Counted from the stretch's first letter, positions 7,959 to 28,820 are shown. The stretch: DNA of 42,960 nt from Flavobacteriales bacterium (GCA_030828175.1 JAURDB010000003.1:1-42960), one strand, 5' to 3'. Numbers and translations are program-made. Notes: generated by a model not told the origin, from the sequence alone.

Positions 7959-10334
7959 TTACTGTTTGATGACGGCCTTCACCGCACGCTGTCCATCGGC
8001 TTCGATGACGACGACATACCGACCGTTGTCAAAGGCGCTCATGTCGAGCACACCGGTCGGATTCGTTGTCTCATAGCAGAGGCGGCCGTTGGCGTCGAGC
8101 ACCTGCAGGCGATCTACCTGCACGGCACCCCAGCGCAACACATCCGTCGTGGGGTTCGGGTACACCTCGAACAAGGAGCCGAGGTCGAGCTGATCCACAC
8201 CGGACGGAAGGCTGAGTACGGCGTCGATGACGTGCACCACTCCGTTGTCAGCGACGAGGTCGGCGACAATGACGTTGGCATCGTTGACCATGACCATCAT
8301 GCCGTCGATGGAAATCGTGACTTCTTCACCCTGCAGGGTGGCGATGGTCTGTCCATCGGTCAGGTCCGTACTCATGGCCGCTGCACCTCCCACTACATGG
8401 TAGGTGAGGATGTCGGTCAAGGCTCCCGCGGGGTCCGCGAGGAGCTCATCGATCAAGCCAGCGGGCAATGCTCCGAAGGCTGCGTCTGTAGGGGCAAATA
8501 CAGTGAAGGGACCTTCACCCGAGAGGGCGTCGACCAATCCCGCAGCGCCAACAGCGGCTTCGAGGATGGTGTGGTTTTCACTGTTCACGATGATGTCCAC
8601 CACAGTGGCCGGAGCTGGTGGCTGAGGAAGCAACACGGCATCGATGACGTGCACCACACCGTTGTCGGCCACCAAGTCGGCCACGACCACCAAAGCATTG
8701 TTGATGATGACATTGCCTCCGTTCAAGGTCACGGTCACGTCCTGCCCATTGAGGGTGGTGATCATCTGACCGTCGGACAAGTCGCCACTCATGGCGGCAG
8801 CTCCGCCTACCACGTGGTAGGTCAGGATGTCGGTCAATGCGCCGGTTGGGTCGGCGAGGAGCTCGTCAATCACACCTGCGGGAAGCGCAGCAAAAGCCAT
8901 GTCAGTAGGAGCAAAGACCGTGAAGGGACCTTCGCCGGAAAGCGCGTCCACCAATCCTGCAGCAACCACGGCTGTCTCGAGGATGTTGTGGTTGGGACTG
9001 TTCACCACGATGTCCACCACGGTGGCGGGTGTGGGAGCCGGTGGCGTCAGGATGGCATCAATGACGTGCACGACACCGTTGGAGCCGATGAGGTCAGCCA
9101 CAATGACGGTAGCATCGTTGATCATGACCGTACCGTCCATGATGGTGACGGTTACTTCCTCCCCGTTGAGGGTTTCGATCATCATGCCGTCGGAGAGGTC
9201 TCCAGCGGTCAGGCTGTCACCCGCTACGTGGTAGGTGAGGATGTTCGTCAGGAGCGCGTTGTCCGTCAGAATCTGCAGAATCACGGCAGGAGGAAGGGCA
9301 TCGAATGCCGCATCCGTGGGGGCGAAGACCGTGAAGGGGCCGTCGCCAGCCAGGGCCTCATCCAATCCGGTGCTGTCGAGAACAGCAGCCAAAACCGTAT
9401 GGGCCTCGCTTTCGGCAATGATATCTGCCACCGTCGGGGTGACCTCTGGCGTCGGCGGCAACAGCACCGCATCGATGACGTGCACCACGCCATTGTCCGT
9501 GGTGATGTCCGCCACAGTCACGGTTGCGTCGTTGACCATGACAGTACCGTCCATGATGGAGATGGTAATGTCCTCACCGAGCATGGTGGTGATCATCTGT
9601 CCATCGGAAAGGTCACCACTCAAAGCGGTGGCATTGACCACGTGGTACAACAGAATGTCTGCGAGGCCTTCGAGAGCGAGCAGGTCGTCAGCGGTGATCC
9701 CGAGGGTGGTAACCAACGCGGTCACGGCATCATCGGTAGGGGCAAAAACCGTGAAAGGACCTTCTCCGGAGAGGGCGTCCACAAGACCGGCTGCACCTAC
9801 TGCAGCCTCCAACAAGTTGTGGTCCTCGCTGTTGACGATGACATCCACCACCGTTGTCGTTGCGGGCGGGGGAGGGAGGAGCACAGCGTCGATGACGTGC
9901 ACGACTCCGTTGTCGGCAGCAATGTCCGCAACGGTCACATTGGCGCTGTTGACCATCACGTTTCCTCCCATGATGGAAATCGTGACGTCCTCGCCTTGCA
10001 GCGTGGTGACCATTTGTCCGTCAGAGAGGTCTCCGCTCATGGCGGTTGCACCGACAACGTGATACAAGAGAATGTCGGTGAGGCCATCCAGGGCAAGCAG
10101 GTCATCCGCAGTAATGCCGAGCTCGGTAACCAAGGCAGTCACAGCTGCGTCGGTGGGAGCGAAAACCGTAAAAGGACCATCTCCGGAGAGGGTGCCTGCG
10201 AGATCGGCTGAAAGGACCGCAGCTTCGAGGAGCGTATGGTCATCGCTGTTGACTACCACGTCGACCACGGTGGTCTGGGCTTGAAGAAGTGCGCCGATCA
10301 GGAAGAAGGGCAAAAAGAGGGTATGCTTGAGCAT
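7959..10334 (-). CDS. Secreted five-domain fasciclin (FAS1) protein with T9SS sorting domain
   Basis: The 791-residue protein has a signal peptide (residues 1-19, ending LLQAQ) and five FAS1 domains at about 21-154, 160-293, 300-430, 437-570 and 577-707. Each shows the H1 motif GPFTVFAPTD, a YHVV-type motif and the closing GVVHVIDAVL. Short proline-rich linkers (LPPPPATT, TPPAPTPAT) separate the domains. The last 70 residues are a T9SS type A sorting domain (EVYPNPTTDVLRW ending VKAVIKQ). FAS1 domains mediate cell-cell or cell-matrix adhesion, so this is probably a surface adhesin. Domains 1-2 and domains 4-5 form two closely similar pairs, with domain 3 intermediate, which suggests stepwise duplication. 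It converges on cysQ and diverges from the M43 protease. Confidence 0.93.
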   Translation of the reverse strand: MLKHTLFLPFFLIGALLQAQTTVVDVVVNSDDHTLLEAAVLSADLAGTLSGDGPFTVFAPTDAAVTALVTELGITADDLLALDGLTDILLYHVVGATAMSGDLSDGQMVTTLQGEDVTISIMGGNVMVNSANVTVADIAADNGVVHVIDAVLLPPPPATTTVVDVIVNSEDHNLLEAAVGAAGLVDALSGEGPFTVFAPTDDAVTALVTTLGITADDLLALEGLADILLYHVVNATALSGDLSDGQMITTMLGEDITISIMDGTVMVNDATVTVADITTDNGVVHVIDAVLLPPTPEVTPTVADIIAESEAHTVLAAVLDSTGLDEALAGDGPFTVFAPTDAAFDALPPAVILQILTDNALLTNILTYHVAGDSLTAGDLSDGMMIETLNGEEVTVTIMDGTVMINDATVIVADLIGSNGVVHVIDAILTPPAPTPATVVDIVVNSPNHNILETAVVAAGLVDALSGEGPFTVFAPTDMAFAALPAGVIDELLADPTGALTDILTYHVVGGAAAMSGDLSDGQMITTLNGQDVTVTLNGGNVIINNALVVVADLVADNGVVHVIDAVLLPQPPAPATVVDIIVNSENHTILEAAVGAAGLVDALSGEGPFTVFAPTDAAFGALPAGLIDELLADPAGALTDILTYHVVGGAAAMSTDLTDGQTIATLQGEEVTISIDGMMVMVNDANVIVADLVADNGVVHVIDAVLSLPSGVDQLDLGSLFEVYPNPTTDVLRWGAVQVDRLQVLDANGRLCYETTNPTGVLDMSAFDNGRYVVVIEADGQRAVKAVIKQ
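8214..10274 (-). repeat. Five tandem copies of a ~415-bp FAS1-encoding unit
   Basis: The coding sequence for residues 21-707 of the fasciclin protein is a head-to-tail array with a period of about 137-140 codons. Motifs such as GTCGATGACGTGCACCAC recur at each unit border on the plus strand. Protein similarity is highest between units 4 and 5 and between units 1 and 2. The array is prone to unit gain or loss and to assembly collapse. Confidence 0.85.
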
Positions 10335-10549: not shown

Positions 10550-12283
10550 ATGAACCTTCGTACCCTCTTTTGCACCCTATTGGTGGGTGCTTCGGCCATG
10601 CTCTCAGCCCAAGAGCGGGTCTGCCACACGATGGGCAACCTCGATCGACTCCTGAATGAACATGAGCAGCTCCACGAGCAAATGGAGCAGATCGAAGCCT
10701 TTACCCGGACATTCGAGACGACGCCCCAGCTCAGGAATGGAAATGTGGTCACCATTCCCGTGGTGGTCAACGTCATCTACAAGACAGGAGCGCAGAACAT
10801 CTCGGATGCCCAGATCCAATCCCAGATCGATGTGCTCAATGCCGATTTCCGCCGGACCAACAGCGATGCGGACAACACCTGGTCACAGGCTGCTGATACC
10901 GAAATCGAATTCTGCCTCGCCAGCGTGGACCCCGATGGCAATGCCACCAATGGCATCCGCCGCAAGTCCACCAACAAGCCTTCCTGGCAGGCCAACGATG
11001 CCATGAAGGGCAACCAGGGCCTCACACCTTGGGATCCCTCATCCTATCTCAATATCTGGGTTTGCAACCTGAGTGGTGGACTGCTCGGATACGCACAGTT
11101 CCCTGGAGGACCGGCATCCACCGATGGCGTGGTGTGCGACTACGCCTATTTCGGTACGATCGGCACGGCCACCTTCCCCTTTGACCAGGGACGCACCTGT
11201 ACCCACGAGGTGGGACACTACCTCAATCTGCGGCACATCTGGGGCGATGGCGGTTGCAGCGTGGACGACTTCGTGGGGGACACCCCCCTCTCGGACGGGC
11301 CGAACTACGGCTGCGCCATTGGTCATGTGAGTTGCGGATCAGTCGACATGGTCCAGAACTACATGGACTACACGGACGATGGCTGCATGAACCTGTACAC
11401 CGACGGACAGGCCATCCGGATGCACGCCCTCTTTGCACCGGGCGGATTCCGCTATTCACTGACCCAGTCAGGGGGCTGTGGCGACACACCCACGCCCACC
11501 TGTACGGACGGCATTCAGAACGGCGATGAGACCGGTGTCGACTGCGGTGGATCTTGTGCCCCGTGTGCCACACCTACCTGTGACGATGGCATTCAGAATG
11601 GTGACGAGACCGGTGTCGACTGCGGTGGCGCGGATTGTCCCGCTTGTCCGGCGACCTGCGACGATGGGATTCAGAACGGCAACGAGACCGGCGTGGACTG
11701 CGGAGGACCCGATTGTTCTCCCTGCTCCACAGGCACGTGCGACGTGCCCGCAGGAACCAATGCGGTCAACATCAGACGCAAGCGGGCTACCCTGACGTGG
11801 GATGCCGTCGGCGGCGCGGTCAGCTACACGGTACAATTCAGGGTGGCAGGTTCTGCCGCTTGGACGAGTGAGGCGACCACGACAGAGACGAGCATCACGG
11901 CTTCCAGCTTGAACAACAACGTCACCTACGAATGGCGGGTCCGGAGCAATTGCAACGGGGATGCCAGTGCATTCTCGCCCATTTGCAGTTTCACGGCGGG
12001 CGATTCGAACTCGAGCAGCTGTGCGGGAGAGCGTGTTGTTTTGGCTGAGGTACGGGCCTATCCAAACCCCGCCGATGCTTCGGTGCGCATCGAGGTTTTG
12101 CTCGGCGGAGACACTCCGGTCAGCTTGCAGGTGGCCGATGCCTTTGGCCGATTGGTCATGGAGCAGGAGCTTGTCGATGGTGCCTTCGTCGACCTCGACG
12201 TGAGCGACCTCGATGCCGGCATCTATCTGGTACGGGCCACCAACGGTTTGACCGAAGACGTCATCCGACTCGTGGTCGAATAA
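10550..12283 (+). CDS. Secreted M43-family zinc metalloprotease with T9SS sorting domain
   Basis: The 577-residue protein starts with a signal peptide (MNLRTLFCTLLVGASAMLSA). The catalytic domain (about 60-305) carries the metzincin site HEVGHYLNLRH (219-229: three histidines and catalytic Glu220) and the Met-turn NYMDY (Met272), as in pappalysin/ulilysin-like M43 enzymes. Three cysteine-rich copies of DGIQNGxETGVDCGG follow (318-386), then a fibronectin type III domain (about 400-482) and a T9SS sorting domain (AYPNPADASVRIEV to the end). It is therefore an extracellular protease released or anchored through T9SS. It diverges from the fasciclin gene across 215 bp in which no confident promoter was found. 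Confidence 0.93.
   Translation: MNLRTLFCTLLVGASAMLSAQERVCHTMGNLDRLLNEHEQLHEQMEQIEAFTRTFETTPQLRNGNVVTIPVVVNVIYKTGAQNISDAQIQSQIDVLNADFRRTNSDADNTWSQAADTEIEFCLASVDPDGNATNGIRRKSTNKPSWQANDAMKGNQGLTPWDPSSYLNIWVCNLSGGLLGYAQFPGGPASTDGVVCDYAYFGTIGTATFPFDQGRTCTHEVGHYLNLRHIWGDGGCSVDDFVGDTPLSDGPNYGCAIGHVSCGSVDMVQNYMDYTDDGCMNLYTDGQAIRMHALFAPGGFRYSLTQSGGCGDTPTPTCTDGIQNGDETGVDCGGSCAPCATPTCDDGIQNGDETGVDCGGADCPACPATCDDGIQNGNETGVDCGGPDCSPCSTGTCDVPAGTNAVNIRRKRATLTWDAVGGAVSYTVQFRVAGSAAWTSEATTTETSITASSLNNNVTYEWRVRSNCNGDASAFSPICSFTAGDSNSSSCAGERVVLAEVRAYPNPADASVRIEVLLGGDTPVSLQVADAFGRLVMEQELVDGAFVDLDVSDLDAGIYLVRATNGLTEDVIRLVVE
11501..11707 (+). repeat. Three-copy cysteine-rich repeat within the M43 protease gene
   Basis: Three near-identical units of about 75-80 bp each encode C(T/D)DGIQNGxETGVDCGG, followed by a CxxC-like pair. 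The DNA copies also share most third positions (for example GAGACCGG with TGCGG downstream), pointing to recent duplication. The units probably act as a disulfide-stabilised spacer between protease and FN3 domains. Confidence 0.8.
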
Positions 12284-12304: not shown

Positions 12305-13549
12305 CTACGGGGAAGGAGTCCATGTCGCCGTGCGCACATGGGCTTCCTTCCCCGTTGTCGTCCAGGCCAACATGACGCCGCCTCTCTCGAGTCCCACCAA
12401 CGAAGGGAATCCTCCCGCCCGAGCGTCGTCCACAGAGGTAAGCGCGATGGGCTCAGTGAGAAGGGGTGTTCCGCTGGGCATCCAGCATTGGCCCATCAAT
12501 CGCGGCGCATCGTTTTCTCTCTCCATCCAAATGGCATGGAATCGGCCCTGACCATCGACAGCGGCTGCAACGCGGCCCACAGCTTCTGCGCGTTGCAGGT
12601 TCTCGACCTCCGACCACACTCCTTCCTTCGAACGCCAGGCCATCCGAATCCGCGGCTGGTCTTCGGCATTCGTGAACCAGATGGCGAGGGTGCGGTCGGC
12701 TCCCGAAGCCAAGGCCGATCCATTGACGGGACATCCTGCAATGCGCCATCCGTCGGCACCCACAGGAACGGGACCCTGGATCAATTGAACGGAGTGCGCA
12801 TCGGTGGACGCGATTTCAACGGCACTGAAGTCCCTCATCTCGTCTGCCGTGCGGTCGCGATAGGTGAGCAGATACCCGCCGCCGGAGAGGGCGGCTGAAG
12901 CCATGGGACAGCAGGTGCAGGCGGAACTGTCCAACACCACTTCGTCCGACCAACCCAAAGCTGGCGTCCATCGGGCAGCGCGCACCTCCATGGGGGCCTT
13001 GGCCGGGTTGGGATGTCCGTCGAACTGCCGGCCATCCAACCAGGCCAGCATCGCCCCATCGCGGGTGGGCATCCACTGGGCGAATCCGTGCTCGGCCACG
13101 GCCGTGTCGCGGTGGGGTCGGTCGGCCTCGGACCATGTCAGGCCGCCATCCACGCTGTGCGCGGTTTCGATGCCGTAGCAGAAGTCACCCCTTGGATCCA
13201 TCCGCAGCCAATGGGCGTGGGCGTCTCCTTGGGGGCCGAACGCCATCGAAGGGCGATCGGCCCAGTTGACCAGCAATCCAGTGTCCTCGACGATCGTGAC
13301 GGGTGTGCTCCAACCGGTGTCCACCCATTGCGACCACCGAATGGCCACGGTATCCCCCCGTTCCTCTGCAAAAAGCAAGGCAGGACCATCAGGAGAGAGG
13401 GCAAGTCCCGGCAACGAAGTGCCGGCAGGCAAGTCCTTCATCTCATGCAAGGGCCCTCTGGATTCAGATTCGGCACAGCTGCACAGAAGGACGGCCCACA
13501 CGGCGCCCAGGGTGAATTCAAATGCCGTCCGCCAGGGGCGGTTCATCAT
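12305..13549 (-). CDS. Exported sialidase-fold (BNR-like) lipoprotein
   Basis: The 414-residue product has a lipoprotein-type signal (VWAVLLCSC, lipid cysteine near residue 25). The rest is rich in beta-propeller-like repeats of the BNR kind (SVDGGLTWSEAD, WARSKEGVW-like stretches) and contains a tight cysteine cluster ACTCCPM seen in a branch of exo-alpha-sialidase-like proteins. Sialidase catalytic residues cannot be assigned, so enzymatic activity is uncertain; it may only bind glycans. The start overlaps the stop of the phosphodiesterase gene by 4 bp (ATGA), placing it last in the four-gene operon. A long hairpin lies at its 3' end. Confidence 0.7.
   Translation of the reverse strand: MMNRPWRTAFEFTLGAVWAVLLCSCAESESRGPLHEMKDLPAGTSLPGLALSPDGPALLFAEERGDTVAIRWSQWVDTGWSTPVTIVEDTGLLVNWADRPSMAFGPQGDAHAHWLRMDPRGDFCYGIETAHSVDGGLTWSEADRPHRDTAVAEHGFAQWMPTRDGAMLAWLDGRQFDGHPNPAKAPMEVRAARWTPALGWSDEVVLDSSACTCCPMASAALSGGGYLLTYRDRTADEMRDFSAVEIASTDAHSVQLIQGPVPVGADGWRIAGCPVNGSALASGADRTLAIWFTNAEDQPRIRMAWRSKEGVWSEVENLQRAEAVGRVAAAVDGQGRFHAIWMERENDAPRLMGQCWMPSGTPLLTEPIALTSVDDARAGGFPSLVGLERGGVMLAWTTTGKEAHVRTATWTPSP
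12307..12355. terminator. Long hairpin between M43 protease and sialidase-fold genes
   Basis: ACGGGGAAGGA (12307-12317) pairs perfectly with TCCTTCCCCGT (12345-12355). The inner arms GTCCATG (12318-12324) and CATGGGC (12337-12343) extend the stem after a one-base bulge. The loop is about 12 nt. The stem lies just after the protease stop and inside the last codons of the convergent gene. No T-run follows on either strand, so a role as a bidirectional terminator or mRNA 3' stabiliser is inferred. Confidence 0.5.
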
Positions 13550-15741
13550 TCCACCACGATGCGGGTGGGCAGGCCTTGGCCGTCCACCGCAGCGGTGTAG
13601 ACACCGGAAGCAACGCCGTCGAGCGGAATGCGCGTGATGCCGTTGCCGAGCATGGAGCGGAGCACTTCCCTGCCGGCCAGGTCACGCAAAACGAGCTCAC
13701 CGGGTACGGCAGTGGACTCCCAGCGAATGGAGAGGTTTCCGTGGGCAGGATTCGGGAATACCGTACAGATGGGAGTACCGGTCTCATCTTCCACCGATGC
13801 GATGACGCCGAGGGCGATGAGGATGCCTTGGAATTCCTGGTGGTAGAGGTTGGCCACACGTGCATCGTGAACGATGACCGTATTCTCGTCGTTGACGTTT
13901 TCTGCGGAGGACGACCAGTTGTGCGAACCGGTGATCACCACAGGGTCATTCGAAGGTGAGGCGTGGTCCACGATCGCGTACTTGTGGTGCAGGTCGCCAC
14001 TGATGTTGTGGTGATAGACCTGGACTCCCGAGGACAGCAGGTTTTCGTATTCGCTGCCTGTGGTATTGACCTGTTCGATGGCCCCAATGGGGTTGACGAA
14101 GAAGCTCTCGCCCAATTGTGCAATGGCGTCGCCGAGGTCGTCGCGGGTCAAGGCGAGGAGGGCGAATTCAAACTCGGAATCGGCCGCTTCGATTTCCTCG
14201 CGTATGGCATTGGTCGTGCCGTCCGAGGGGGAGAAGTAAAGCTCAACCGGCACCCCTCCCACGAGGAAGTCGACGGGCGTGTTCCAGGTCTTGTCCGGAC
14301 CGAACTTGGCGTTGGCGGCGTCCGGCATCATGCCATCCGCTCCCCACATTTCGTTGAACTCCATGGTGTAGGCGCGGGCCAGGCTCTGGTCCTCGAAGAC
14401 AATGGCGTTGTTGAGATCCTGCACGAGGTTGCCGGTGGTCAGGTTGGTGGATCCGGTCAGCACGAAGGCCGACTCGGGGTATTCCGCGTCGCCTACGATG
14501 AACTTGTTGTGCATGCCGCTGCCCTGGCCATCGGTGCGGGGGTGGGTCACGACGGATTCCGGAAGGTTGCTGAGGCCGACGTTGGCGTTCTGCCCTTCAT
14601 AGATCCAGCGGATTTGTACGCCGTTGTTGGCGGCGGTCTCGAAGGCGTCCTCCAAGGTCTGGTCGTTGAAGTTGTAGGCGGCAACGTCCAGGGTGTGCTG
14701 AGCGGATGTGATCCATGCGGCGACCGTGTCATTCATGTCCACACCGAGCGACTGGGCCTCCTCTACGGTGGCGACCGCGGTGTTCACCGGGCCGTTGAAG
14801 TAGACGTGGATGGCGCCGGAAGAATTGGACACCGTGGCGTAAGGGCGAATGGGGGAGGCGGCACTTTCTCCGTCAGGCAGGCTCGAGATGGCCCGGGCGA
14901 AGTAAATCTTGCCCGCTTCCAATCCGGTGAGGTCCACACTGTGATCGGTGGTGCCGGAGGCACCGCTGGCCGTCATGCCGAGGTCCTCGGTCAGTCCGTA
15001 TTCCACAATGCCATCCGACGCAAGGTCGGTGCTCCACGAAAGTGTGAATCCCGAAGTCGTCATGTTGGACTGGACCACCGGTGAGGTATAACAGATGCCC
15101 GATGCCGGCAACAAATCAACCGGACCGCGGGGCAGCAACTGGTAGCCCCCCGTTCCATCAAAAGAGAACTGGCTCACGATACCGATGAGGTCCACGGCAC
15201 ACCCCGTCAAGGTTTCACCCACCAGGCTGTTGCTCGTGCGGACGTACATGATGCCCGTCTGCCCGTCGGCTGTAAAATCGTAGGTGTTGTTGCCCGTGAT
15301 TTCCAGACCGGCCAAGGGGAAAGTGGCTCCGTTCACACGGACGAGCTGTCCTTCCAGCGATTCATCCATTTCGGAAGCGCCGATGACCATAGGCTCTGGC
15401 AATGTCCCAGCGCCTTCAAACACCACGGCGGTCAGGTTGGGCCCAACCTCCAGCAGGCCGTTGTACTCGGTGATCTCGCCGGTGACGGTCAACGAATCCC
15501 CGATGGCCGGGGTGGCGTCCCAATCGCCCCAATCCCCGCCAGGATAAAGCGCGATGCCGGCGGTGGCGTCCTGCAGGTAGCGGACCGACCCGAGGTTGTC
15601 GTCGCTGGTCACCACACCGGTGACGGTCACGACGTCGCCAACGCCAAAGTTGGTGCGGGCGTCGAGGATGTTGTCCTGGGCGCGGAGGCCGTTGGACAGG
15701 GCCAATGCCATCAAGGCAACGGAGAAAACAAGCTTGTTCAT
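13546..15741 (-). CDS. Secreted phospholipase-D/nuclease-family protein with OB-like domain and T9SS tail
   Basis: The 731-residue protein has a signal peptide (to about residue 21). An OB-like domain of the secreted-nuclease type spans about 24-210 (FGVGDVVTVTGVVTSDDN). An FN3-like domain (about 220-303; TLSWSTDLASDGIVEYG) precedes two phospholipase-D half-sites. Both HKD motifs are intact: HNKFIVGD (His411, Lys413, Asp418) with GSTN, and HHKYAIVD (His585, Lys587, Asp592) with GSHN. A T9SS sorting domain ends the protein (VFPNPAHGNLSIRW onward). PLD-family enzymes cut phosphodiesters in phospholipids or nucleic acids; the OB-like domain favours nucleic acid. It overlaps the TonB receptor gene and the lipoprotein gene by 4 bp each, implying coupled translation. 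Confidence 0.9.
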   Translation of the reverse strand: MNKLVFSVALMALALSNGLRAQDNILDARTNFGVGDVVTVTGVVTSDDNLGSVRYLQDATAGIALYPGGDWGDWDATPAIGDSLTVTGEITEYNGLLEVGPNLTAVVFEGAGTLPEPMVIGASEMDESLEGQLVRVNGATFPLAGLEITGNNTYDFTADGQTGIMYVRTSNSLVGETLTGCAVDLIGIVSQFSFDGTGGYQLLPRGPVDLLPASGICYTSPVVQSNMTTSGFTLSWSTDLASDGIVEYGLTEDLGMTASGASGTTDHSVDLTGLEAGKIYFARAISSLPDGESAASPIRPYATVSNSSGAIHVYFNGPVNTAVATVEEAQSLGVDMNDTVAAWITSAQHTLDVAAYNFNDQTLEDAFETAANNGVQIRWIYEGQNANVGLSNLPESVVTHPRTDGQGSGMHNKFIVGDAEYPESAFVLTGSTNLTTGNLVQDLNNAIVFEDQSLARAYTMEFNEMWGADGMMPDAANAKFGPDKTWNTPVDFLVGGVPVELYFSPSDGTTNAIREEIEAADSEFEFALLALTRDDLGDAIAQLGESFFVNPIGAIEQVNTTGSEYENLLSSGVQVYHHNISGDLHHKYAIVDHASPSNDPVVITGSHNWSSSAENVNDENTVIVHDARVANLYHQEFQGILIALGVIASVEDETGTPICTVFPNPAHGNLSIRWESTAVPGELVLRDLAGREVLRSMLGNGITRIPLDGVASGVYTAAVDGQGLPTRIVVE

Positions 15742-18700
15742 GGTCGGTTCTGGAGTCCCTTGAGTTCGAGTACCGCACTCAGGCGGATCATGCGCGGTGG
15801 GCCGACAAAGATTTCGGCCTGTCCGCTGCCCCCCTCGGGACCATAGGGGTAGGGGGCGTACTGTGAATTGTTGTTCGCGTCGGTGATGAAGAGCTCGTCG
15901 AGGAGATTCGTCACACTCAGACGCACGCGCAGGAGCGCATTGTCAGAGACATCAAAGCTGGTTCCCGCATTGAAATTGATGAGGTTGTAACCAGGGGTCA
16001 CCCACACGTCTTTCGGCTCGCCCTCGGTGATCACATCACCGGGCGAGAAGTTGGCATAGTGCTGCCAGAACCAGGTGCTCCGCAAGGAGAAGTAGGTGCC
16101 GCGCTTCGGGCGGTAACTGATGGAGGCAGAGATCTGACGTTGCGCCGCATCGCCCACCTTTACCCCATTGAGGTTCACGAGGGTGTCCGCCACAGCTCCA
16201 TTGTCCGTGCGGGTGATGAAGTCATTGTCGGAGCTGTTGATGAGGTCGACACTCTCGTTGCTGGTCCAACGCCAGTTGCCCCATGAGAAGACACCCTGCA
16301 CATCGAGTTTGGAGGTCACGTCATAGGCGAAGTCCCACTCCACACCGCTGTGGACGGCATCCGCGTTGAGCAGGTTGTAGCCCAGGTTCCGGTCCACTTG
16401 CTCGATGATGGTGTTGGCCTCGGTTCCCCAGTCGACGTCCTCGATGAGTCGGTCGTCCTGTGCCAACACGAGCAAATCCTGCCGGCCTTCCGTGGTGGAA
16501 GTGTCAGCGTACACACTCAGGTTGGGGTCCTGCCACAGGTTGGACACGCTGTAGAAGCGGTTTACAGCCTTGTTCTCCCAGCCGGTGCGGTAGGCATTGA
16601 TGTTCGATGCGAAGCGTCCTTTGGCGTATTTCACACCGAGTTCGACCGCTTTGACGTATTGATTTTCATAACCCTGGATGAGTTCATTGCTGAGGTCGAA
16701 TACCGAGTTGAACAGCGGTGCCCGGCTCAGGTAGCCCAGGTTGGTGTAGGCGCTGGTCCACTCGTTGAGGTTCTTGTTGCCTCCAGCCTTGACCGTGAAG
16801 CTGTTCAGGCGCTCCCAATCCGTGGTGTAAGTCTGCAGGTCCGGGTGATCGGCCGCAAGCACGGTCCCGTTGGCCAAAGTGTCAGTGGACCAGTCATCTT
16901 CGCCGAGGACCCGCCACTCATCCGTGGAGCGCACTTCATAGGTGGTTCCGTCCAGTGTCAATACCCGCGGACGGAAGTAGTCGATGCCCCGGTACCAACT
17001 CTGAGCGCCGGATACATTGACAAAGGCGCTGTGGTTCAGCTTGTCCCATTCGAGTTGGACATAAGAGCCGCCCCAAGCCACCTGTCCGTCATCGTAGTAG
17101 TAATACTTATCTCCTTCGCGCAAGGGGGTATCGAAGTCGGCATTCTGGTCGCGGCGGTCGTTGGGGGCGTCGTAATAGTCGGCGCCAAACATGTCGCCTA
17201 TGGTCCTGTAGTGGCTTCCCGTGTAGTGTCGCGCATCAATTCCCGCGCTGAAGTTCAGTTCATCGCTGACGTCCGTGGTGAAATTGGACAGCGCGCCGAA
17301 CCAACGGTGGTCGTTGTGGGCGATCCGGATGAAGTTGGAACCCTTGCGCTCTCCATTGGCATCGACATTCAGCCCATTGGGGCCAAACTCGAACAGCTGG
17401 TGCGAATCCCAAGTCGGCTGCAGGTCCAGCGTTCCGTCCCCCAAACGCGTGCCGGGCGTGCTGGCCAAGGCCTCTCCACCACCGGTTCCGAAGCTCGCGT
17501 ACGCGGTGGTCGTCAAGGTCGACTTGTCGCTCATGGCCCACACGTCGCGCGCCGTGAAAATCGGCTTGAAGTAGTAATTCTGGCGGGAATTGTATCGGCG
17601 GTTCTCACCATAGGTAGTATCGACCTGACCGGTGGCCTCGTTGTAGTCGTAATAGACCTCCTGGTAGTTGACGATGAACTCGTTGAAATCCCGTCCGCGG
17701 GAAACGAGGTCCGTGGAGTCGGCTCCGGCGATGATGCCCTGCAGTTGTACTTGCCCTTCTGCCGTGGTCAATTCACTGGCGAGGTCAGTGTCGAATTCAT
17801 GGACCTGCATCTGGAAGGAGCGTTGTCCATGGCGCTGGGGGGCGCCGAAAGCCGTGAAACTTACGTTGTGGTTGCCCATGGTCTTGCGGCCCTTCAGGTA
17901 GTAGGCCCAAGCCTCGGATTCCAGACCGGATGCAAAGCCCTGGTTGGTCCGGTAGGATCCTACAAAGTGGAGGAAACCCTTTTCCTGGTTGCCGAAAACG
18001 CCCGCAAGGCTGTTGCGGTAGTAGCCGTAGTTGCCGATTTCAGAAAGAAAGGTCAGGCGGCCGTTGCCGCTTTCATCGCCGCCCGTGAGGATGTTGATCG
18101 TCCCTCCCACGGATGGGATGGCGAGCTTGCTGGCGCCCAATCCCCGTTGGACCTGCGTGGTGCGAACCACAAGGTCCAAGCCGGCCCAGTTGCTCCAATA
18201 CACCCAGCCGTTCTCCATGTCGTTCATGGGGACTCCGTCCACCATGACAGCAAGGTTGGTCTGGTCGAATCCACGGATGGTCACACGGGCGTCTCCGTCG
18301 CCGCCCCCTTGTTGCGTCGCATAGACGCCAGGTGTCGTGTTGAGGATCATCGGCAGGTCGCGGCCGGCCAGTTCCTCTTGAATCTGCGCTGGAAGGACAT
18401 TGGTGAAAGCCACGGGGGTCTTCCGGTCGATGGCCAAGTCAGCAGCGACGATCGCCTCTTCCAGGATGAGCGATTCAAGGTTGGCATTGACCGTTTGGCT
18501 GGCGCCGGTCACGGTGACAGAAACCACCTTGGCGGCATAGCCGATGTACGAAAAGGTGAAGTCGCGGGTGCCGGTGGGAACAGACAACTGGTAGCGTCCG
18601 TCGATGTCAGTAGCGGTGATGTTGTCACCCACTTTGACGTAGGCTCCGATGAGCGGGTCACCGGAAAGTCCGTCGCGAACGAGACCGGACACCGCGCAAT

Positions 18701-18764
18701 TCTGCGCATGCGCACCGGCCATGCCCAGCCCGAGGGCCAGGAACAGCGTGAGCCATTGCTTCAT
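15738..18764 (-). CDS. TonB-dependent outer-membrane receptor with N-terminal carboxypeptidase-like domain
   Basis: The 1008-residue protein has a signal peptide (ending GAHAQ). A carboxypeptidase-regulatory-like beta-sandwich spans about 24-100 (GLVRDGLSGDPLIGAYVKVG). The plug domain lies at about 110-230, with VTIRGFDQTNLAVMVDGVPM and GGTINIL, and a long 22-strand-type barrel runs to the C-terminus. Such receptors import large or scarce ligands using TonB energy. The plug motif MNDMENGWVYWSNWAGL is distinctive of one receptor group. No SusD-like partner is adjacent, so this is not a standard polysaccharide-utilisation pair. It sits second in the operon, between a secreted lamin-tail protein and a secreted phosphodiesterase, so its ligand is probably a product of their action. 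Confidence 0.93.
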   Translation of the reverse strand: MKQWLTLFLALGLGMAGAHAQNCAVSGLVRDGLSGDPLIGAYVKVGDNITATDIDGRYQLSVPTGTRDFTFSYIGYAAKVVSVTVTGASQTVNANLESLILEEAIVAADLAIDRKTPVAFTNVLPAQIQEELAGRDLPMILNTTPGVYATQQGGGDGDARVTIRGFDQTNLAVMVDGVPMNDMENGWVYWSNWAGLDLVVRTTQVQRGLGASKLAIPSVGGTINILTGGDESGNGRLTFLSEIGNYGYYRNSLAGVFGNQEKGFLHFVGSYRTNQGFASGLESEAWAYYLKGRKTMGNHNVSFTAFGAPQRHGQRSFQMQVHEFDTDLASELTTAEGQVQLQGIIAGADSTDLVSRGRDFNEFIVNYQEVYYDYNEATGQVDTTYGENRRYNSRQNYYFKPIFTARDVWAMSDKSTLTTTAYASFGTGGGEALASTPGTRLGDGTLDLQPTWDSHQLFEFGPNGLNVDANGERKGSNFIRIAHNDHRWFGALSNFTTDVSDELNFSAGIDARHYTGSHYRTIGDMFGADYYDAPNDRRDQNADFDTPLREGDKYYYYDDGQVAWGGSYVQLEWDKLNHSAFVNVSGAQSWYRGIDYFRPRVLTLDGTTYEVRSTDEWRVLGEDDWSTDTLANGTVLAADHPDLQTYTTDWERLNSFTVKAGGNKNLNEWTSAYTNLGYLSRAPLFNSVFDLSNELIQGYENQYVKAVELGVKYAKGRFASNINAYRTGWENKAVNRFYSVSNLWQDPNLSVYADTSTTEGRQDLLVLAQDDRLIEDVDWGTEANTIIEQVDRNLGYNLLNADAVHSGVEWDFAYDVTSKLDVQGVFSWGNWRWTSNESVDLINSSDNDFITRTDNGAVADTLVNLNGVKVGDAAQRQISASISYRPKRGTYFSLRSTWFWQHYANFSPGDVITEGEPKDVWVTPGYNLINFNAGTSFDVSDNALLRVRLSVTNLLDELFITDANNNSQYAPYPYGPEGGSGQAEIFVGPPRMIRLSAVLELKGLQNRP

Positions 18765-18781
18765 GGGAGCCTTTTTTGGAA

Positions 18782-19666
18782 TCAGTTCTTGACCGTTTGG
18801 CGACGGGCCAAGGCGCCGTCCACCATGCGGGCTTCGATGAGGTACGCACCTCCCGGCAGGTCGCCGAGGTCCATGCGCAGGCGAAGGACACCACCTGCTT
18901 GAATGCGGCGTACTTCAGCACCTGAGAGATCGCGGATGACGACGGTCTCCATGGGCTGGCCCGTCACGAGCTCAAGCTGGTCATTGAAGGGGTTGGGAAA
19001 GGACTGCAGGCTGGCAGTGTTGCGCTCCTCCACGTTCGTGACGCAGTCGCAGACGTGGAAGCCGAGCTGGTCGAAGGTGTTGACCTCGAGGGAGTCCCAC
19101 ACGGCGAGAACATCGAAGGCGTCGGTGGCCGCCATGTCGCCTCCCGTGACTTCAGGACGGCGCACGAGCGTGTGGTTCTGGGTGATTTCGTCCCAGCCGG
19201 CAGAACCGGGGTCCTCCCCGATGACACCGAAGATGTCGATGGCGCTGTTGGTCGAAATCTTGCGCAGCACCATGGCGTCGTTGCCGTTGAAGTACATCGC
19301 GTTGTTCTCATCGTAAACGGGGCAGAGCCAGAGGTCGGCCGCGGCGGCGAGCTCGTCCCAAACCGGGGCCTCGAAGTCGACACCGTCGGGGTCCTGCTTG
19401 TCGAGGACGCAGACGACCACATCTCCGGGCTCAATCGTTCCGCTGAGGTCTACTTTCTGGTTGTCCTGTGCTGAAGTGGCACCGTTGGAGTAGCGCTCCA
19501 GGCGGTAGTCCGACAAGTCGATGGCGGCTCCGGTCGGGTTGTAAATCTCAATGGCCTTGTTGTTGGACCATCCTTCGATGTACTCTGAGATGAACAGTTC
19601 GTTGCACTGTGCCAGAGCGGCGGATGTGGACAGGGCCATAGCGGCCAGGAAAAACAGCTTGCGCAT
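18782..19666 (-). CDS. Secreted lamin-tail-domain protein with T9SS sorting domain
   Basis: The 294-residue product has a signal peptide (MRKLFFLAAMALSTSAALA) followed directly by a lamin-tail domain (about 20-205) starting ELFISEYIEGWSNNKAIEIY. This variant is also found at the N-terminus of secreted ExeM-like nucleases. No nuclease domain follows. The final 70 residues are a T9SS sorting domain (SFPNPFNDQLELVTG to the end). It is the first gene of the operon, 17 bp before the TonB receptor gene, and lies behind a clear promoter. It may act as a surface ligand-binding subunit; this is inference from context. Confidence 0.88.
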   Translation of the reverse strand: MRKLFFLAAMALSTSAALAQCNELFISEYIEGWSNNKAIEIYNPTGAAIDLSDYRLERYSNGATSAQDNQKVDLSGTIEPGDVVVCVLDKQDPDGVDFEAPVWDELAAAADLWLCPVYDENNAMYFNGNDAMVLRKISTNSAIDIFGVIGEDPGSAGWDEITQNHTLVRRPEVTGGDMAATDAFDVLAVWDSLEVNTFDQLGFHVCDCVTNVEERNTASLQSFPNPFNDQLELVTGQPMETVVIRDLSGAEVRRIQAGGVLRLRMDLGDLPGGAYLIEARMVDGALARRQTVKN

Positions 19667-19691
19667 GGTATTGGGCTTGAGTGAATCGGCG

Positions 19692-19720
19692 CAAAGTTAG
19701 ACGCGATTCCGAACCCGCAA
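19692..19720 (-). promoter_or_regulatory. Promoter of the four-gene receptor/phosphodiesterase operon
   Basis: On the minus strand TTG (19720-19718) is separated by 18 bases from TAACTTTG (19699-19692), a perfect match to the Bacteroidota -7 box TAnnTTTG. The expected transcription start is near 19687, giving a leader of about 20 nt before the ATG at 19666. It is the only strong promoter seen upstream of the four genes down to 12305. Confidence 0.7.
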
Positions 19721-23188: not shown

Positions 23189-26100
23189 ATGCAACGTTTC
23201 AGCACTGTCATTTTCTCTTTGATAGGGTGTACAATCGCCGCCCAAGATTTGCCAGATCCTCTGCCCGCCGCGCGCGGGGTGGTGTTGGCTACCGAAGCGG
23301 CGTCTTCATTCCACGTCCCTGCTCCCGCCTTGCGCCCGGCTGAGGACAGAACCGCCGAATTCATCGTCAATTATTCCGGCTTTTCGACAGAAGCGCAGAC
23401 GGCATTTCAATACGCCGTGGACATTTGGTCCGGCCTCATCACCAGCGATGTGCCCATCGTAATTGATGCCCAATGGGAGGACCTGCCCGGAAACACCTTG
23501 GGGTCGGCGGGAGCCACCGGGCTGTGGTACAATTTCTCAGGTGCCCCTTTCAACGGAATTCTCTATCCGTCCCCCCTCGCAGACAAGCTGGCGGGCTTCA
23601 ATCTCGACCCGGGCCAGGCCGACATCTCTGCCAATTTTGACAGTGGCACAAACTGGTATTACGGCTTGGATGGGAATCCCCCCTTCTCTGCATTCGACCT
23701 CGTATCTGTGGTTCTCCACGAAATAGGACACGGCCTTGGGTTTGCTGGAACTGTCTACGTCGGTGCGGACGGCAATGGCTATGTGTTGAATGGAAGTTTG
23801 CCCGGCGTGTTCGATGGCCATGTCTGGACAGGAAACAGTGAATCCATCCTGTCATTTGGAGATGGCAGTGCGGCGCTGGGTGCCGCCCTCGTCTCGGAGA
23901 ACTTGTACTGGGGCGGCATCCAAGGCAATGCATACAGCGGTAGCCCCTTGTCGCCCAAGATGTACGCTCCCATGTTCTGGGAGCCCGGCTCAAGTTTTTC
24001 GCATTTCGATGAAGACCTGTACCCGGCAGGTTCCGATCACTCTTTGATGACGCCTGCGATTGGAAACGGTGAAGCTGTGCACTCACCGGGTGCGATGGCA
24101 CTGGGGGTATTGGATGACATCGGATGGACCGTTGACTACGCGGCATTGGGTGTTGGAATACCGGGATGCACGGACGAGTCGGCCTGCAATTACGATCCGG
24201 AAGCCACCCTGGTGGATGGCAGCTGCATCTATCCCGTAGCCGATGAGCCCTGTGGCGATTGCATTTCCGTATGGTCGATGGCCAGCGATCTGGCAGCCGG
24301 GGAGGGAGAAGCCTTCACCTATGGCGGTGTGGGGACCATGGGTCAGGTCGACATCTCGGTTCAGTGGCCGGGACAATCCGGAGGAGGAGAATGGATATCA
24401 GACTTGCTCGTCGAAATATGCGATCCGAACGGAGACTGCTTTGAGTGGGGCGGCTATGATTTGACTTCCGGATCGCCCAACGCGGGTGTGGATTGGCCCG
24501 AGGAATGGGACGTGTCTTCCGGCGGCACTTTCACCGTTTCATTGGATTTAACGCTCTTGGACCTTTCCGGGGTCGGGACGTGGACGGTCACCCTTTACAA
24601 CGGATATCAGAGCTCGTCAGGGCTGACCCTTTCCGATGTCACCTTCACGGTGCCCTTTGTCTGTTCCTTGACGGGGCTCAATCCGGGGTGCACGGATTCG
24701 GCCGCTTGCAATTTTGATGCGGCGGCGGATTACAACGATGGGAGCTGCGATTACTTGTGCTTCAACTGTGCTGAAACCACGGTGAACGAGACATTTCAGG
24801 GCTACGATACAGACCAGCCTCTGACGGTGCAATCCAGTGCCGGTTGGGAGACCTGGAGCGGGGGCAGCGGTACCGCTGAAGACCCTTATGTGGTCTTTGA
24901 TGGATTCGATGGTGCTGCAGCCATCGTGGCTGCGGATGTCGATCCCACACAGGGCACGGATCTCATCTTGCCCATAGGAGAAACGGAGGGGACACATGTC
25001 GTGCAGTTTGCCTTGAAAGCCGATGCGGGGAGCAGCGTGTATTACAATTTCCAAGGCGACGTGGTGCCGGGTGTGGAGTGGACTTTCGAGAACTACATCT
25101 TTCCGGACGGAACCCTGAGGATGTACCACGGGACCGACTCCACCATTGCGACCGGCTTCCAGTGGGGGCAGGACAATTTCCTGACCCACCTGTTCGATTT
25201 GGACAACAACGAGTTGCGCGTGGTCATGGGCAGCTCCCTGATCGCCCTGATCCCCTATCCCGGAAACCTCGGTGGCGTCAATTTCTATGGGGTCAGTTTT
25301 GGCGGAGGAACGGGTGAATACCTGCTCGATGATGTGACCGTGTGCTCCACCACCACCTCGGTGGTCGGTTGCACGGATGCTTCGGCCTGCAATTACAATC
25401 CCGAAGCCGAAGTGGACGATGGGTCATGCTGGACCCCGTTTGATTACGGCTGGTGCAACTGCGAAGGCGACGTTTTCGATGCACTGGGCGAGTGCGGAGG
25501 TGATTGCGCTGCAGATCTGGATGACGATGGGATTTGCGATTCCGAAGACCCTTGTGTCGGAGGCGAGCTGGATGAATGCGGCATGTGCGATGGACCTGGC
25601 CCCATTTACGAGTGCGGGTGCACCGACATTCCCAACGGAGATTGCGATTGTGACGGAAACCAGTTGGATGCCCTCGGTGTATGTGGTGGCGACTGTACGG
25701 CCGACCTCGACATGGACGGTGTGTGCGACATTCCCGGGTGCACCGATGTGTTGGCTTGCAACTACGAATCCTCTGCCAACTACGATGACGGCAGTTGTGC
25801 TTATGCCGAGGCTTACTACGATTGTCAGGGGAATTGTCTGAATGACACCGATGGCGATGGAGTGTGCGATGAACTTGAGGCCGCAGGATGCACCGATGGC
25901 GAGGCTTGCAACTTTGATGCAGATGCTACGGAGGATGACGGCAGCTGCGCCTTTCTCATGGCAACGGGCATAGACGGCGCCCCGGTTGTGAATGAGGGCG
26001 ATGTGACATTGTATGTCGCTCAACCCTCCGAGCCGGGCAACACGTACACTTGGGCCGTATCGGGAGGGTCTTTGGAATCGGGCCAGGGGACCCCGATCGT

Positions 26101-26458
26101 GACCGTGGCATGGTCGGATGTGGGAAGCCAGGGAATTCAACTGGTCGAATCCAATTCGGAGTGCACCGGAGGGGTGCTGAGCCTGGATGTTGCCGTTCAG
26201 GAGGTCGTGGGAATGGATGAAGCCGGAAGGGAACGCATTACCGTCTTCCCGAACCCCGCGGTACAGGGGTTCCATATTTCCAGTCCCGTCGCAGGGGTAT
26301 TGCTCATGGCCTTGGATGGCCGGAGGGTGCAAACTTGGCCGGCAGCAGCTCCCGGGGGATGGTATCCATTGCAGAATGTGGGGTCTGGGGTCTACCTGCT
26401 TCAATTCGAAACGGGGGGGAGGCCGCGCACCCAGCGATTGCTGATAGGGGAACTTTGA
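23189..26458 (+). CDS. Secreted leishmanolysin-like metalloprotease with CTDxxACN repeats and T9SS tail
   Basis: The 1089-residue protein has a signal peptide (to about residue 19) and a protease domain (about 50-320). The zinc site HEIGHGLGF (177-185) lacks the histidine six residues on that matrixins use. A later His272 in FSHFDEDLYP, followed by the Met-turn LMTP (Met287), gives the spaced third ligand known from leishmanolysin-type M8 enzymes. Five copies of GCTDxxACNxxxxAxxxDGSC follow (326-346, 500-520, 727-747, 850-870, 900-920), with jelly-roll-like segments between, and a calcium-binding-like DxDxDG region (about 765-850). A T9SS sorting domain (VFPNPAVQGFHISS onward) ends it. It is an extracellular protease. 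Confidence 0.88.
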   Translation: MQRFSTVIFSLIGCTIAAQDLPDPLPAARGVVLATEAASSFHVPAPALRPAEDRTAEFIVNYSGFSTEAQTAFQYAVDIWSGLITSDVPIVIDAQWEDLPGNTLGSAGATGLWYNFSGAPFNGILYPSPLADKLAGFNLDPGQADISANFDSGTNWYYGLDGNPPFSAFDLVSVVLHEIGHGLGFAGTVYVGADGNGYVLNGSLPGVFDGHVWTGNSESILSFGDGSAALGAALVSENLYWGGIQGNAYSGSPLSPKMYAPMFWEPGSSFSHFDEDLYPAGSDHSLMTPAIGNGEAVHSPGAMALGVLDDIGWTVDYAALGVGIPGCTDESACNYDPEATLVDGSCIYPVADEPCGDCISVWSMASDLAAGEGEAFTYGGVGTMGQVDISVQWPGQSGGGEWISDLLVEICDPNGDCFEWGGYDLTSGSPNAGVDWPEEWDVSSGGTFTVSLDLTLLDLSGVGTWTVTLYNGYQSSSGLTLSDVTFTVPFVCSLTGLNPGCTDSAACNFDAAADYNDGSCDYLCFNCAETTVNETFQGYDTDQPLTVQSSAGWETWSGGSGTAEDPYVVFDGFDGAAAIVAADVDPTQGTDLILPIGETEGTHVVQFALKADAGSSVYYNFQGDVVPGVEWTFENYIFPDGTLRMYHGTDSTIATGFQWGQDNFLTHLFDLDNNELRVVMGSSLIALIPYPGNLGGVNFYGVSFGGGTGEYLLDDVTVCSTTTSVVGCTDASACNYNPEAEVDDGSCWTPFDYGWCNCEGDVFDALGECGGDCAADLDDDGICDSEDPCVGGELDECGMCDGPGPIYECGCTDIPNGDCDCDGNQLDALGVCGGDCTADLDMDGVCDIPGCTDVLACNYESSANYDDGSCAYAEAYYDCQGNCLNDTDGDGVCDELEAAGCTDGEACNFDADATEDDGSCAFLMATGIDGAPVVNEGDVTLYVAQPSEPGNTYTWAVSGGSLESGQGTPIVTVAWSDVGSQGIQLVESNSECTGGVLSLDVAVQEVVGMDEAGRERITVFPNPAVQGFHISSPVAGVLLMALDGRRVQTWPAAAPGGWYPLQNVGSGVYLLQFETGGRPRTQRLLIGEL

Positions 26459-26517
26459 CCAGAAATTCAGGGGGATGCGCCTTCGAATTTCCCTACCGCA
26501 TCATCCGCGTGACCCCG

Positions 26518-26524
26518 TATTTTG
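26518..26524 (+). promoter_or_regulatory. Candidate -7 box just before the CotH-like gene
   Basis: TATTTTG ends 4 nt before the ATG at 26529. It is one base short of TAnnTTTG. The position would place the transcription start at or next to the start codon. Confidence 0.35.
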
Positions 26525-26528
26525 CGGC

Positions 26529-28820
26529 ATGAATCTGTCTTTGCGCACTGGGGTGCGTGTTATCGCCGCCTTCACAGGCGTGTGGTTGTTTGGGAGTTCA
26601 TCCGCTCAAACGGACATCCCACCGTTTGGTCCCATCTTCCTGCAAGAAGAGGTTGCCACCATTGAGATCACAATGGACCCCGACAGCGCAGCAGCCATGC
26701 TCTTCGGAGATGTGGATGACGCGTCGACCAATCCCTTTCCGGCCGTTTTCCATTACCAATCCACCGTGCTCGATACTGTCATCGACAGTCTGGCCATCCG
26801 GTTGCGGGGCAATACCTCACTGAGTGCGGCCAAAAAGAGCTTCAAGATTGACATGAACGCGGTCATACCCGGACAGAAGATCGCGGACCTGGAAAAGCTC
26901 AACATCAATGCCAACCAGAACGACCCTTCGCTCCTGCGGGCGGGATTGGGCTGGAACATCATTCGCCGCATGGGACTGGCGGGTTCGCGCACGAGCCATG
27001 TCAAGTTGGTGCTCAATGGTGAATACATGGGTGCTTACCTCAACACCGAGCACTTCGACGAGGAGTTTGTGGAGGAGTATTGGGACAAGGACAATGGCAA
27101 CCTATACAAATGCTTGTATCCCGCTACGCTGGAGTACATCGGAAGCGATCCAGATGACTACAAGTTCGAGTTGTTCGGACGTCGCGTTTACGAGCTCAAG
27201 ACCAATACCGATGAGGACGACTACGCGGACCTTGCGGAGTTCATAGACGTCCTCAACAACACCCCTGAAGCCGATTTCCCTTGCGCCATCGAGCAGGTCT
27301 TCAATGTGGCTGATTTCTTGAAGGTGCAGGCATTTGATGTGGTGAGCGGCAACTGGGATGGATACGCGGGCAACAAGAACAACTTCTACCTCTACCACAA
27401 CCCGCAGACCGACCTTTTCGAGTACATCCCTTACGACCTTGACAACACCTGGGGCATTGACTGGGTCAACCAGGATTGGGAGAACCGAAACCCTTACGCC
27501 TGGTCCACGGAGTACCGTCCACTCTACGATCGATTGATGGCGGTACCGGAGTATCGGCAGTGGTATACCCATTACCTCCGCAGGATGGCCTCAGAATGGG
27601 CCCATCCGGATTCGGTCTCTGCCTATCTCGACCCCCGACAGGCCTTGCTGTCGCCGGCCATTGCCGAGGATGCCTACTACCCCCTTCAGTTCGGGTTCTC
27701 GCCGGACGATTTTGAAGCGTCTCTGGAAGAGGCATCCGGAGGCCATGTGGAATTCGGCATTCTGCCTTGGCTCAGTGCGCGCCTTGGTTCGCTGAACGGC
27801 CAACTCGATGCGGATGACCCGGTACTCGTGGTGCACGAAGTCGAGGACAATGCGCCCGTGTTGGATTCACTGCGGATACGGGCCATTGTGGACGGCGGTG
27901 GAGATGGTGTCGAGGTCATCTGCTGGATCGATGCTGGAGCGGGCCCCCTTCCTTTCGAGATGTTCGACGATGGAGAACACGGCGACCGCCAGCCCGATGA
28001 TGGAACTTGGGGCGTCAAGGTGCCGATTGCATACAATTGGACCGCAGTGGACTACCATGTGCAGGCCACAAGCGAGTCCGGCCTCGAGCGCTGGGTCCCC
28101 TGTGATCCGGTGACGGTGACGGTGGGGCTTTCCCCTTCGAACCTGGTGGTCAACGAGCTCATGAGTTCCAACGCCAACAATGTGTCGGACGAATTTCTCG
28201 AGTTCGACGATTGGGTAGAGCTCTACAACGACGGTCCCGACCCCATTGAACTCGGCGGGAAGTACCTGAGCGACAATCTCGGCAATCCCGGAAAATTCGC
28301 TTTGCCCGAGGGAACCATCGCACCCGGAAGCTGGGCATTCTATTGGGCAGACAACGACCCGGAGCAGGGCCCTTACCACGCGGACTTCACCCTTTCGGGA
28401 TCGGGTGACGAAATCGTACTGTCGGAATGGGACGCAGAGAATGAAGTCTGGCTCATCCTCGACTACTTTCCCTTCGGCGCCTCTCCAGAGCAGGACGCTT
28501 CCCTCGGCCGGTATCCTGACGGGGAAGACTACTGGGTGTGGTTCGCCACTCCCACGGCGAGCTATACCAACAACTACGCCATCATCCTCGGAGCCGATGA
28601 GCTCGAAGGGCCGGCACCCCGCACCATGGGCCCCAACCCTTCGCGGGATTGTGTGCGGTGGAATGGAGCCGCCGCTTCGGGAGAGGTCTGGGATACACAA
28701 GGCCGTCTGCGCCTCGCCTTCGATGCCACCCACCAGCTCTGCCGAGGAGGTTGGGAGGCCGGCGTCTACCTGATCACCTTGGACGACGGCACACGCTGGC
28801 GCTGGGTGCTCGTGGACTGA
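26529..28820 (+). CDS. Secreted CotH-kinase-like protein with lamin-tail domain and T9SS tail
   Basis: From the ATG at 26529 the protein has 763 residues and a signal peptide (ending FGSSSAQ). The CotH-like domain (about 35-400) shows RLRGNTSLSAAKKSFKID, NLYKC and the metal-binding DLDNTWG (303-309), the signature of CotH atypical protein kinases. A linking beta domain follows (about 430-540), then a lamin-tail domain (about 545-680; VVNELMSSNANN, DDWVELYND). A T9SS sorting domain (MGPNPSRDCVRWNG to the end) completes it. CotH proteins phosphorylate secreted partners in spore formers; the substrate here is unknown. A longer in-frame start at 26475 lacks a sensible signal peptide. Confidence 0.88.
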   Translation: MNLSLRTGVRVIAAFTGVWLFGSSSAQTDIPPFGPIFLQEEVATIEITMDPDSAAAMLFGDVDDASTNPFPAVFHYQSTVLDTVIDSLAIRLRGNTSLSAAKKSFKIDMNAVIPGQKIADLEKLNINANQNDPSLLRAGLGWNIIRRMGLAGSRTSHVKLVLNGEYMGAYLNTEHFDEEFVEEYWDKDNGNLYKCLYPATLEYIGSDPDDYKFELFGRRVYELKTNTDEDDYADLAEFIDVLNNTPEADFPCAIEQVFNVADFLKVQAFDVVSGNWDGYAGNKNNFYLYHNPQTDLFEYIPYDLDNTWGIDWVNQDWENRNPYAWSTEYRPLYDRLMAVPEYRQWYTHYLRRMASEWAHPDSVSAYLDPRQALLSPAIAEDAYYPLQFGFSPDDFEASLEEASGGHVEFGILPWLSARLGSLNGQLDADDPVLVVHEVEDNAPVLDSLRIRAIVDGGGDGVEVICWIDAGAGPLPFEMFDDGEHGDRQPDDGTWGVKVPIAYNWTAVDYHVQATSESGLERWVPCDPVTVTVGLSPSNLVVNELMSSNANNVSDEFLEFDDWVELYNDGPDPIELGGKYLSDNLGNPGKFALPEGTIAPGSWAFYWADNDPEQGPYHADFTLSGSGDEIVLSEWDAENEVWLILDYFPFGASPEQDASLGRYPDGEDYWVWFATPTASYTNNYAIILGADELEGPAPRTMGPNPSRDCVRWNGAAASGEVWDTQGRLRLAFDATHQLCRGGWEAGVYLITLDDGTRWRWVLVD

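Follow-up and report, generated by a model that had tools for sequence, protein, structure and literature searches.

TonB-dependent receptors are known to carry iron chelates, vitamins and glycans. What would such a receptor import when its gene shares an operon with a secreted PLD-type protein and a lamin tail domain (LTD) protein? This question is raised by a locus of a Flavobacteriales bacterium contained in a 42,960-nucleotide stretch of DNA (GCA_030828175.1 JAURDB010000003.1:1-42960), which was analysed as a whole and is hereafter called the window.

Four tandem genes occupy positions 12305-19720 of the minus strand, on a single contig of a genome that is 84% complete (Table 1). Gene and domain calls confirmed what a sequence-only reading had described, that is, the four genes at these positions, their spacing of +17 bp (LTD to receptor), -4 bp (receptor to PLD gene) and -4 bp (PLD gene to lipoprotein), and the absence of SusD: no SusD partner was matched among the four ORFs in the Pfam and NCBIfam searches, and no extra gene lies between them. 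The receptor is thus without the SusD-like partner that defines a SusC/SusD utilisation locus. The single promoter proposed upstream of the first gene also held, as it is the sole match in the window to the Bacteroidota -33/-7 pattern, for which 0.15 matches were expected, and no second -7 box of this type was found elsewhere within the operon. Of nine relatives from the genus whose sequences were compared, eight retain its -7 box, TAnnTTTG. A sigma-70 promoter at 19720 was considered and dropped, since a sigma-70 scan gave no site there and the Bacteroidota pattern fits instead.

Table 1. Positions of the operon features in the window, listed in the direction of transcription
Feature	Position	Strand	Remarks
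Bacteroidota-type promoter TTG-N18-TAACTTTG	19692..19720	-	25 bp upstream of LTD start codon
Core gene 1: secreted LTD protein with T9SS tail, 294 aa	18782..19666	-	PF00932 57.4 bits, PF18962 27.9 bits
Lamin tail domain, residues 21-148	19223..19606	-	Pfam domain search
Core gene 2: TonB-dependent receptor, 1008 aa	15738..18764	-	Plug PF07715 47.8 bits, CarboxypepD_reg PF13715 41.6 bits
Core gene 3: secreted OB/DUF5689 - fn3-like - tandem PLD - T9SS tail protein, 731 aa	13546..15741	-	PF13091, PF18942
DUF5689 (PF18942) / OB-like domain, residues 29-209	15115..15657	-	31 bits, cut-off 28.6
First HKD motif HNKFIVGD (H411, K413, D418)	14488..14511	-	H, K, D invariant 57/57
Second HKD motif HHKYAIVD (H585, K587, D592), then GSHNW and NDENT	13966..13989	-	All invariant 57/57
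Candidate T9SS sorting tail of the nuclease, residues 661-722	13576..13761	-	23.1 bits, under cut-off 27
Beta-propeller lipoprotein, 414 aa, one Asp box (SVDGGLTW)	12305..13549	-	Genus-specific

The LTD protein carries a T9SS sorting domain that scores just above the cut-off of 27 bits, and its family was found at E 1e-20 in 184 of the 224 good genomes of the order. Its best NCBIfam match is ExeM (NF033680), and the 78 bits of this match, which covers the N-terminal part only, are far from the 1300 bits of the equivalog, a full-length match that includes the EEP domain. In ExeM of Shewanella, the LTD, OB-like and nuclease domains are joined in one chain, and the OB-like and nuclease domains are both needed for activity (PMC6085458). 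ExeM and Xds of Shewanella and Vibrio thus resemble the present proteins in combining these three domains in a secreted or envelope protein; unlike them, they are single polypeptides with an EEP catalytic domain, no T9SS tail and no TonB receptor described alongside. Elsewhere in the window, a CotH kinase gene (26475-28820, plus strand; 188 bits) also encodes a lamin tail domain (44.9 bits), and it adjoins the gene of a 1089-aa protein (23189-26458) without any Pfam match.

The product of the third gene contains PLDc_2 (PF13091) twice (115.9 bits), and its two HxK(x4)D motifs, expected to form one active unit, place it in the PLD superfamily of HKD phosphodiesterases. The HKD motifs with the GS-N and N-EN signature are shared with NucT, Nuc and MitoPLD, whereas two HKD units in one chain, together with the OB, fn3-like and T9SS domains, distinguish it from these proteins. 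The T9SS tail, which is under the cut-off in the window, scores 49.9 and 57.8 bits in relatives. The best NCBIfam match was NucT (NF010492), with 44.9 bits against a curated cut-off of 297 bits, so that the protein is not a member of the NucT family, although it may work similarly to NucT. The closest solved sequence in the PDB was MitoPLD (48.8 bits). In the predicted structure (pLDDT 78), the fold matched two-unit PLD proteins, MitoPLD/Zucchini, Nuc and NucT, and also phosphatidylserine synthase and polyphosphate kinase; the PLD fold by itself is therefore compatible with a lipid enzyme as well as with a nuclease, because lipid enzymes and polyphosphate kinase match too.

Conservation of the locus was analysed in neighbourhoods gathered by a search with the PLD protein in 60 relatives and a genome collection, and ORFs were chosen with domain weighting, because in GC-rich loci a choice by length alone let antisense ORFs mask some of the genes. 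The LTD, receptor and nuclease genes recur in the same order and on the same strand, and full triads were found in 21 families of the class Bacteroidia (7 in the order and 14 others), as counted by family labels in loci picked for spread and not at random. A gene order limited to close relatives would have counted against the sequence-only reading; the order is kept in these 21 families instead. Median gaps in the triad loci were 30 bp from the LTD gene to the receptor and 10.5 bp from the receptor to the next gene. Three loci of other lineages (L103, L109 and L113) encode LTD, OB and PLD as parts of a single chain, and the order of the parts is that of Shewanella ExeM. Literature searches on DNA-uptake loci, TonB and nucleases, which did not extend to most subscription journals or to preprints, brought up no account of the triad.

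A PLD query favours loci with PLD. To avoid this bias, counts were drawn from separate searches with an LTD alignment and a receptor alignment, after which the neighbouring genes were read. LTD-receptor pairs were counted when the third gene was uncut by a contig end, and a nuclease was accepted if it followed on that strand no more than a few genes away. Among complete loci, the third slot held a nuclease in 43 of 43 from the LTD search and in 28 of 32 from the receptor search, and reading of the genes found no nuclease in the four remaining receptor-found loci (L200, L202, L205 and L206). Over all sets, a nuclease was present in 110 of 114 loci, of which 46 encode PLD and 64 Endonuclease I.

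The PLD-type and Endonuclease I families are unrelated, and both include known nucleases. On the receptor tree the type of enzyme switches approximately six times, and at least two of the switches are forced by well-supported branches. Two loci (L066 and L067) encode DUF5689 with Endonuclease I (PF04231, 84 and 76 bits) in place of DUF5689 with PLD. This exchange bears on the substrate, for which nucleic acid, a teichoic-like polymer and phospholipid had all been offered. Phospholipases and phosphatidylserine synthases belong to the PLD superfamily, and together with the fold matches this would suit a system that degrades phospholipid or a teichoic-acid-like polymer and imports the products. 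Nevertheless, the same slot is occupied by Endonuclease I, for which we know of no role as a lipid enzyme, and the nearest sequence families of the PLD protein are NucT and MitoPLD, so that we regard lipid or polymer degradation as extremely improbable. Of the three substrates, nucleic acid is favoured, in view of the Endonuclease I exchange and of the 5′-nucleotidase and EEP neighbours described below.

The fourth gene behaves differently from the first three. It is confined to 8 members of the genus, including that of the window, and was absent from all other loci examined; the conserved unit is genes 1-3 only. The Pfam and NCBIfam searches gave no match for its product, and Foldseek matched the model (moderate pLDDT, 65.5) to lectin propellers and sialidases. 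Its CTCCP motif is invariant and it has a single Asp box. The sialidase-fold lipoprotein had been proposed as a component of the apparatus, which its genus-specific occurrence does not bear out, and it was left out for that reason. The operon is flanked by genes for a T9SS protein with five fasciclin repeats (7959-10334, minus strand) and an M43 metalloprotease with a T9SS tail (10550-12283, plus strand), and both are kept alongside in several members of the genus.

Further genes are linked to the triad in some families. In one of them (f9), two genes follow in nearly every locus, the first for a lipoprotein with a 5′-nucleotidase C-terminal domain (PF02872, 56-59 bits), the second for a metallophosphatase (PF00149, 71-82 bits), and each mostly lies no more than approximately 20 bp from the preceding gene; L123 is an exception, and another gene intervenes in L139. 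EEP nucleases (PF19580, 403 bits) lie downstream in a second family (f3), and a T9SS metallophosphatase lies inside the unit in L204. Nucleic acid is indicated as the substrate because PLD is swapped for Endonuclease I in the third slot and because 5′-nucleotidase and EEP genes follow. The window's genome (84% complete) has two more Endonuclease I genes, and no PF02872 5′-nucleotidase was found in it; acquisition of phosphorus through the 5′-nucleotidase pairs is plausible.

A set of surface nucleases directed at extracellular traps or at the DNA of biofilms or phages, next to a receptor with an unrelated cargo such as iron, would also explain a secreted nuclease, and secreted nucleases such as ExeM often work in biofilms (PMC6085458). 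However, the link between receptor and nuclease holds over 21 families while the enzyme changes, and 5′-nucleotidases are linked in one family, which makes this explanation distinctly improbable. The coupling of a surface phosphodiesterase to a TonB receptor, as proposed from the sequence, is supported by the order kept across these families.

We then turn to the receptor itself. Its Plug domain precedes an outer-membrane barrel, predicted from its family, which is the arrangement of a TonB-dependent receptor. In the tree, the triad receptors group together as a single clade (SH-aLRT 100), and a larger clade (SH-aLRT 96) unites them with the DUF5689-adjacent and MID receptors and leaves outside it 28 other receptors from three genomes. 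Profile scores agree with the tree: with a profile of the DUF5689-adjacent receptors, the median score of triad receptors was close to 200 bits, and other receptors scored 34.5 bits or less, a figure that leaves out the window's own receptor and a MID copy. The MID-type receptors (L208-L214) sit alone beside unrelated housekeeping genes. Directly 3′ of the receptor, six loci of several families (L184, L186, L189, L198, L200 and L202) encode a lipocalin-like lipoprotein (about 145-150 aa); in L200 and L202, the genes read beyond it include no nuclease.

The DUF5689-adjacent receptors recall a pair of genes of Riemerella anatipestifer, RA0C_RS04915 and RA0C_RS04920, which encode an outer-membrane barrel with CarboxypepD_reg and a protein with DUF5689 and DUF5017, respectively; deletion of either lowers transformation below detection (PMC8459023). 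Mutation of tonBA in this species also lowers transformation, with iron uptake unimpaired in the medium used (PMC8383284). As in the triad loci, a CarboxypepD_reg receptor adjoins a DUF5689 protein in the Riemerella pair, whereas the pair lacks both a nuclease and an LTD gene of its own, belongs to a sister subfamily and has transformation as its demonstrated role. In 17 other genomes, the DUF5689 gene directly adjoins a receptor in 15, and no clear receptor match was found by the DUF5689 gene in the other two (L242 and L254). One such locus (L241) has exactly the domain content published for the Riemerella pair, and in another (L239) the DUF5689 partner protein also carries LTD. In L241, the DUF5689 gene is followed at a distance of approximately 300 bp by the gene of a PHO4-family phosphate transporter (107 bits; L241:7795-10098). 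From domain content, adjacency and the tree, in which Riemerella-type loci stand for the Riemerella proteins themselves, the window receptor appears to share a branch with Riemerella-type transformation receptors. It was not accepted as their orthologue: the two types share a clade (SH-aLRT 96) as sister subclades, and in two genomes (G080 and G088) the receptor nearest that of the window is a different gene from the DUF5689-adjacent one.

This relationship raises the alternative of genetic DNA uptake, in which the receptor would be the transformation gate, LTD and OB would capture DNA, and the nuclease would make ends for threading. The loss of transformation on deletion of either Riemerella gene, the grouping of receptors such as that of L241 with the window's receptor (SH-aLRT 96) and the joining of DUF5689 and LTD in the L239 partner all fit this idea, but the Riemerella-type pair lacks the adjacent nuclease that the triad has, and the two receptor types are sisters inside the clade and not orthologues. 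ComEC and a DUF1343/NamZ homologue, both present in the window's genome, would also fit; being too widespread to decide, they carry little weight and were discarded as competence markers. The 5′-nucleotidases that follow the triad in one family suit breakdown and not the import of intact DNA, and use as food is favoured over gene uptake because of this linkage. We therefore consider genetic uptake an unlikely role for the triad.

The cassette of the first three genes probably serves the utilisation of nucleic acid at the cell surface, with TonB-dependent import of the fragments. The LTD protein and the OB-like domain would bind DNA or RNA outside the outer membrane, and the tandem-HKD nuclease, whose domains and catalytic residues are present and which is predicted to be secreted by T9SS, would cut it there. 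The receptor would draw the fragments into the periplasm, as suggested by the gene linkage and by the related receptor type in Riemerella DNA uptake. In some families, the linked 5′-nucleotidases or EEP nucleases would then release nucleosides and phosphate. The cassette most likely serves mainly for nutrition, as a source of phosphorus, nitrogen or bases. Such a system would resemble the SusC/SusD polysaccharide loci in combining a TonB receptor, a surface binding protein and a degrading enzyme in one operon, and would differ from them in the lack of SusD and in having nucleases instead of glycosidases. The DNA-degradation loci of Ca. Izemoplasmatales likewise link nucleases with LTD proteins, and combine them with transporters of nucleosides or nucleobases in the use of DNA as a food source (PMC8289736); unlike the triad, they belong to another phylum, and TonB is unmentioned in the main text of that paper. 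Against utilisation of nucleic acid by the cassette, a gene can be a conserved neighbour of the receptor and yet have nothing to do with its cargo, four of the receptor-found loci have no nuclease, MID-type receptors of the same clade stand by unrelated genes, no PF02872 5′-nucleotidase was found in the window's genome (84% complete), and the PLD fold is shared with lipid enzymes.

A wider idea, possible if somewhat doubtful, is that the whole Bacteroidota clade of TonB receptors moves DNA over the outer membrane, as food where nucleases accompany it and for transformation as in Riemerella, replacing the type IV pilus route by which other Gram-negatives take up DNA. If utilisation of nucleic acid by the cassette is true, nucleic acid would join the cargoes of TonB receptors through a conserved receptor tied to exchangeable nucleases. 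In marine sediments, Bacteroidota are reported to be prominent among the degraders of DNA (PMC8289736), and the cassette would explain how such bacteria could bring DNA in. The unexplained transformation genes of Riemerella would likewise be placed in a context whose evolutionary origin can be tested.
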